Part shown: one piece after another, positions 750 through 941 of the stretch
Layout of the letters: every line of letters begins with the position of its first letter
Numbering within the stretch: the stretch's first letter is position 1
Origin: Thiobacillus sp. 65-29
GTDB lineage: Bacteria; Pseudomonadota; Gammaproteobacteria; Burkholderiales; Thiobacillaceae
Direction: 5' to 3'
NCBI GenBank assembly: GCA_001899775.1
Contig: MKWN01000044.1
Coordinates: 1-64,000 of the forward strand
DNA: 64,000 nucleotides
Program-made: the position numbers and the translations under genes
The notes under the pieces: generated by a model
What the model was told of the DNA's origin: nothing
The model's database searches: none
Seen by the model: only the letters and a program-made list of their open reading frames with translations

Positions 750-941
750 TTATTGATTCGGCCATCTGAAGTTTGAAGTGGCAGGGTAATCCGATTCGAT
801 ATTGCAAGGTTGGGAAGGTGAATCGGCCGAAGCAATAACCAATTAAAACAGCGTTCTATTGAGGCGGCTCAACGAATCTGTCCACCCCTGAAGTGCTTGC
901 AAGCCGATACGGTTTCAAACTTCTTCGTGCCGCCTCAATAG
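750..941 (+). repeat. 192-bp bipartite inverted-repeat element, copy A (ends 14 nt before argB ATG)
   Basis: About 96% identical to the reverse complement of 56397-56588; two modules (750-838 and 856-941), each bounded by its own inverted repeat. Confidence 0.9.

Follow-up and report, generated by a model that had tools for sequence, protein, structure and literature searches.

A probable IS630-type miniature transposon of two hairpins ahead of argB and a cusR-like gene in Thiobacillus

RUP, a repeat of Streptococcus pneumoniae, is a simple miniature transposon (MITE) of 107 bp related to IS630-Spn1 (PMC2229807, PMC3049150). ISY100, a bacterial insertion sequence of the Tc1/mariner type, duplicates TA on insertion (PMC2170065), and a 1991 paper by Tenzen and Ohtsubo, to which PMC2170065 refers, reports by its title a preference of IS630 for CTAG. 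Here we describe a repeat found in a 64,000-nucleotide stretch of DNA from Thiobacillus sp. 65-29 (the window), which we consider, with a probability of about 92%, to be a non-autonomous miniature transposon of the IS630/Tc1-mariner group.

A repeat search of the window returned one long inverted repeat pair, the arms of which are 192 nt each, lie at 750–941 (+ strand) and 56397–56588 (− strand) and are 96% identical without a gap. The first arm, copy A, is followed after 14 nt by the ATG (956) of argB, encoding acetylglutamate kinase (956–1840, + strand; TIGR00761, E 5e-74); the second, copy B, is followed after 9 nt by the ATG (56387) of a gene for a CusR/CopR-type heavy-metal response regulator (55710–56387, − strand; TIGR01387, E 1e-102). 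The initial annotation, made from the letters of the window, was right about the repeat, its length and both spacings, and its term 'bipartite' also holds, as the halves of copy A (750–838 and 856–941) are each an inverted repeat of their own. Elsewhere in the window, 19251–20149 and 48540–49444 are paralogous direct repeats (D1 and D2), about 71–72% identical, within two large + strand open reading frames, and probably represent related signalling domains.

The element is composed of two hairpins with four copies of an end motif, joined by a conserved spacer. The outer ends, YTATTGATTCGGCC...GAAGTTTGAA, are about 29 bp long and the inner end-motif copies about 13 bp. With its target bases, copy A reads T-TA-[186 bp, TTG...CAA]-TA-G on the + strand, the mobile unit proper occupying 753–938 and the two TA dinucleotides, one for each copy of the presumed target duplication, 751–752 and 939–940. 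In its left hairpin (750–838) the outer repeat TTATTGATTCGGCC pairs with the inner repeat GGCCGAAGCAATAA; the spacer (839–855), CCAATTAAAACAGCGTT, is conserved across the genus; and in the right hairpin (856–941) the inner repeat CTATTGAGGCGGC pairs with the outer repeat GCCGCCTCAATAG. Copy B, on the − strand, has the same parts: a mobile unit at 56400–56585, a left hairpin at 56588–56500, a spacer at 56499–56483 and a right hairpin at 56482–56397.

Beyond the window, the genome (2.9 Mb, 61 contigs) contains several fragments of the element and, counting copies A and B, 11 full copies with flanks unrelated to each other, which places the repeat far beyond chance. With a divergent copy as query, 19 of 56 genomes of the genus gave a match, and full copies in the genus are nearly always 190–193 bp long. 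The genus set used below comprises 55 non-redundant copies, with 8 left out (3 with unparsed inner ends and 5 sharing a flank with another copy). Searches of phage and plasmid collections gave no match to the element, and spread on plasmids or phages was discarded on these zero matches.

Other repeats occur near or within some copies. A second repeat family, with the ends CCTAAAAACCGCAGTTG...CAACTGCGGTTTTTAGG, has 33 end matches in the genome, often in +/− pairs about 217–410 bp apart, and its loci include G000:C38:100916-101290 (L012, L013) and G000:C23:250446-250684 (L014, L017), with further arm matches elsewhere in the genome. Two copies of the element are interrupted by it midway, at a nearly identical spot but in opposite orientations, with ATAAT-like bases on either side. 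From about position 1630 of L018, tandem units around GTAGGTCGGGCTTCAGCCCGAC lie beside an element fragment; they form a REP-like palindrome that is also found near copy 11.

All copies show the pattern Y-TA-[TTG...CAA]-TA-R or a decayed version of it, and 11 of 11 in the window's genome show Y-TA...TA-R. Insertion at a YTAR tetranucleotide fits the sequence comparison, because empty orthologous loci in a close relative (G013), those of argB and cusR among them, align gap-free once TTAG replaces the 192 bp, that is, once 188 bp are removed. The tetranucleotides at these empty sites are TTCG (argB), ATAG (cusR), TCAG (copy 4) and TTAC (copy 5), and the locus of copy 8 (TCAG) is likewise gap-free at the site. 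The 186-bp unit would enter the TA of YTAR, which is presumably duplicated: the net length fits a TA duplication (188 bp out leaves 4), with the relatives differing at the central two bases and so obscuring the target's own TA. A stretch of 464 kb from the window's genome has 233 YTAR sites; 58% of them are intergenic, where intergenic DNA makes up 9%, 10% are on stop codons and 32% are inside genes, so that 68% lie outside genes or on stop codons. The target alone therefore makes copies pile up at gene edges, since a GC-rich genome such as this one offers few YTAR sites, most of them outside coding sequence.

The target preference is also one-way, for TTAG. In each of the 11 copies of the window's genome the left target base is T and the right one G, an orientation expected in 23% (p about 1e-7 if the copies are independent). 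Since the empty sites mostly already carry the outer T and G, the target was chosen, not corrected later, and base correction after insertion, templated by the inner repeat, was discarded as the main cause. When lineages are compared, the outer base of a hairpin and its inner partner match strongly (left, T-A 42 and C-G 6; right, C-G 41 and T-A 4), a match that is weak within genomes (p 0.13 and 0.035) and to which lineage effects may contribute. In within-genome shuffles, extension of the hairpin into the flank past one base gave no signal at offsets 1 to 6. We regard it as decidedly unlikely that the target is partly picked by complementarity to the element's own hairpin, with a cruciform or single-strand hairpin form taking part; if true, such hairpin-guided target choice would differ from ordinary IS630 transposition.

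The neighbours of the 11 genome copies are convergent in 4 cases, divergent in 2 and co-directional in 5. Flanking genes were called with a simple codon-usage script, so that single start positions may be wrong; by these calls a start codon at most 30 nt past the right end, in leader orientation, is found for 2 of the 11, which are precisely the two window copies. Of the others, 4 lie on stop codons, and the rest are flanked by convergent genes or adjoin the end of a gene. Of the 55 genus copies, 4 have a start no more than 30 nt from the right end, 12 have one of opposite direction no more than 30 nt from the left end, and 23 have a stop codon no more than 30 nt from the right end. Neither a fixed position and orientation as a 5' leader nor a specificity for sites before start codons, both suggested by the initial annotation, survives these counts, which show no bias in orientation or distance relative to start codons; of its other candidates, a mobile promoter or leader and a structured RNA, what holds is that the element is a mobile insertion and can fold into two stable hairpins. 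The matching placement before argB and cusR is a coincidence of two copies, not a gene switch: the two agree because the element needs YTAR, which is mostly extragenic in a GC-rich genome. What looked like a shared regulatory leader becomes the footprint of a mobile element, and two of two copies can mislead.

Stop codons are an unexpectedly frequent site. Exactly on the stop codon of a neighbouring gene lie 22 of the 55 genus copies, nearly all with an identical 7-nt overlap; from the non-coding YTAR sites one would expect 14.6% (p 4e-6). The overlap is Y-TAT-TGA, in which the TA of the old stop comes first and is followed by the tip of the element, TTGA, to complete TAT-TGA. The proteins of the four genes concerned in the window's genome end in tyrosine (KPAY, SDAY, LPRY and TERY), and orthologues in relatives stop at the corresponding codon (TGA or TAA) without it. 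The tip, as TA-TTGA, thus swaps a TAA or TAG stop for TAT-TGA at the price of one tyrosine, and the gene remains intact because a new TGA is provided one tyrosine downstream. The excess may reflect either target choice or the survival of harmless insertions. It offers a concrete, testable case in which a transposon tip restores the stop that it interrupts, an insertion at a coding end costing one extra amino acid.

The ends of the element link it to IS630. A scan with the 27-nt left end gave 25 contigs, mostly of Gallionella and Sideroxydans, and the outer ends match those of an insertion sequence of 1,126 bp among them (L062:1477-2602), which encodes a 345-aa IS630-family transposase (NF033545, 246 bits; DDE_3, E 2e-35; winged-helix domains in Pfam). 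Within the genus, a member with many element copies (G028) has two IS630 transposases, 83% and 75% identical to that of L062 and both bounded by element-type ends; terminal inverted repeats of about 29 bp are common to all of these and the element. The insertion sequence of L062 and those of the IS630 family at L072:1458-2593 (from G028) and L078:1443-2560 are apparently intact. The 186-bp unit itself has no transposase gene, and neither the window's genome nor most MITE-bearing relatives yielded an IS630 transposase above the family cut-off. Shared IS630 ends together with the lack of a transposase in the window's genome lead us to view the element as a non-autonomous derivative, for which an IS630-type transposase, judged from the ends, is most likely the mover. 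Such a transposase would have acted in trans, its gene having since been lost from the window's assembly.

Conservation follows the two-hairpin form. Identity between species is 73–85% in the outer and inner repeats, 72% in the spacer and 43–48% in the loops. Of the stem cells, 92.4% remain paired; double-changed cells number 39, where shuffles give 8.8, and both partners have changed in 10 stem pairs, compared with 4.8 after shuffling. RNA folding favours two local hairpins over pairing of the outer ends by about 5.5 kcal/mol, and window copies A and B are each predicted to fold as two stable hairpins (z −2.7 and −2.05, respectively). Selection on the two-hairpin form, at the level of DNA or RNA, is likely; compensatory changes in the stems would likewise follow from an inverted repeat that is important as DNA. 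That TTAG is preferred in one direction, that the spacer is conserved and that the stems carry compensatory changes would not be predicted for a plain MITE, and the two-hairpin form, spacer and one-way preference call for a further reason.

An alternative reading is that the hairpins of a MITE were later adopted as bidirectional terminators or as stabilisers of mRNA 3' ends and selected at convergent gene ends. Of 53 classified copies, 15 are situated in convergent gaps, a class that makes up 43 of 318 gaps (14%) in a sample of the genome, and hairpins and spacer are kept while the loops diverge. However, no T-tract follows the stems, no terminator-like site could be attributed to them, and the YTAR target already yields an enrichment at stop codons that favours convergent gaps. 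We consider this adoption unlikely.

A role at the other end of genes, as a cis-regulatory leader RNA (riboswitch, attenuator or mobile promoter) placed to control argB and cusR, is suggested by the two copies just before start codons. Directly 5' of the insertion at argB, a TTGGCGTAAAAT block is conserved genus-wide upstream of the gene and resembles its −10 region; the TAAAAT within it (736–741, + strand) is a probable −10 box, although a simple sigma-70 promoter scan did not pick it up. With the GGAG ahead of the argB start codon retained downstream of the element, copy A would form the first part of the argB transcript. Both window copies, between probable promoter region and start codon, would be transcribed as a structured leader, and the stable folds and double-sided stem changes given above are what such an RNA would show. 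The insertions may affect the expression of argB or cusR, and if they do, arginine synthesis and the copper response could have been retuned by chance. That the element was placed there in order to control the two genes is nevertheless highly improbable. The leader placement is confined to the few copies counted above, most others being near the ends of genes or in convergent gaps; relatives have an argB leader that lacks the element; and transposon-end inverted repeats account for much of the stem. A search of the window against Rfam gave no family at the gathering score, and a known RNA family was discarded on that ground, as was a mobile promoter on a scan that found no sigma-70-type promoter inside or around either copy. 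A repeat family of another kind (REP/BIME, an IS200/IS605-derived PATE or Correia-like), unrelated to IS630, would also be palindromic, intergenic and multi-copy, but given the ends of about 29 bp held in common with IS630-family elements, the TA at both ends and the YTAR-like empty sites, it is almost certainly not what these copies are.

Set against described systems, the preferred reading, an IS630-type miniature transposon, has several parallels. Like RUP, to which we liken it by description, the element is short, non-coding, mostly intergenic, inserted at TA, provided with IS630-like ends and presumably moved in trans; unlike RUP, it is a composite that combines two hairpins, four end motifs and a conserved spacer, and it frequently lies on a stop codon, for which its tip supplies a new one. 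IS630 and ISY100 represent the DDE transposase family of its presumed mover, whereas the element is devoid of genes and has a preference for TTAG in one orientation. TA insertion and a relation to IS630 also mark the Nezha MITEs of cyanobacteria, bacterial MITEs of a different host group for which neither a two-hairpin structure nor a preference for stop codons is known. For Nezha, see Zhou et al. 2008 (cited in PMC10969869). In Gallionella and Sideroxydans, single-unit MITEs of 105–165 bp (L048-L070) are bounded by the same outer ends and flanked by YTA...TAR, but their flanking Y and R bases vary freely, and with neither the spacer nor the inner end-motif pair each is a single unit in place of two hairpins. 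Compared with these, the IS630-type MITE described here has an unusual form, that of two hairpins, and tends to replace stop codons without harm.
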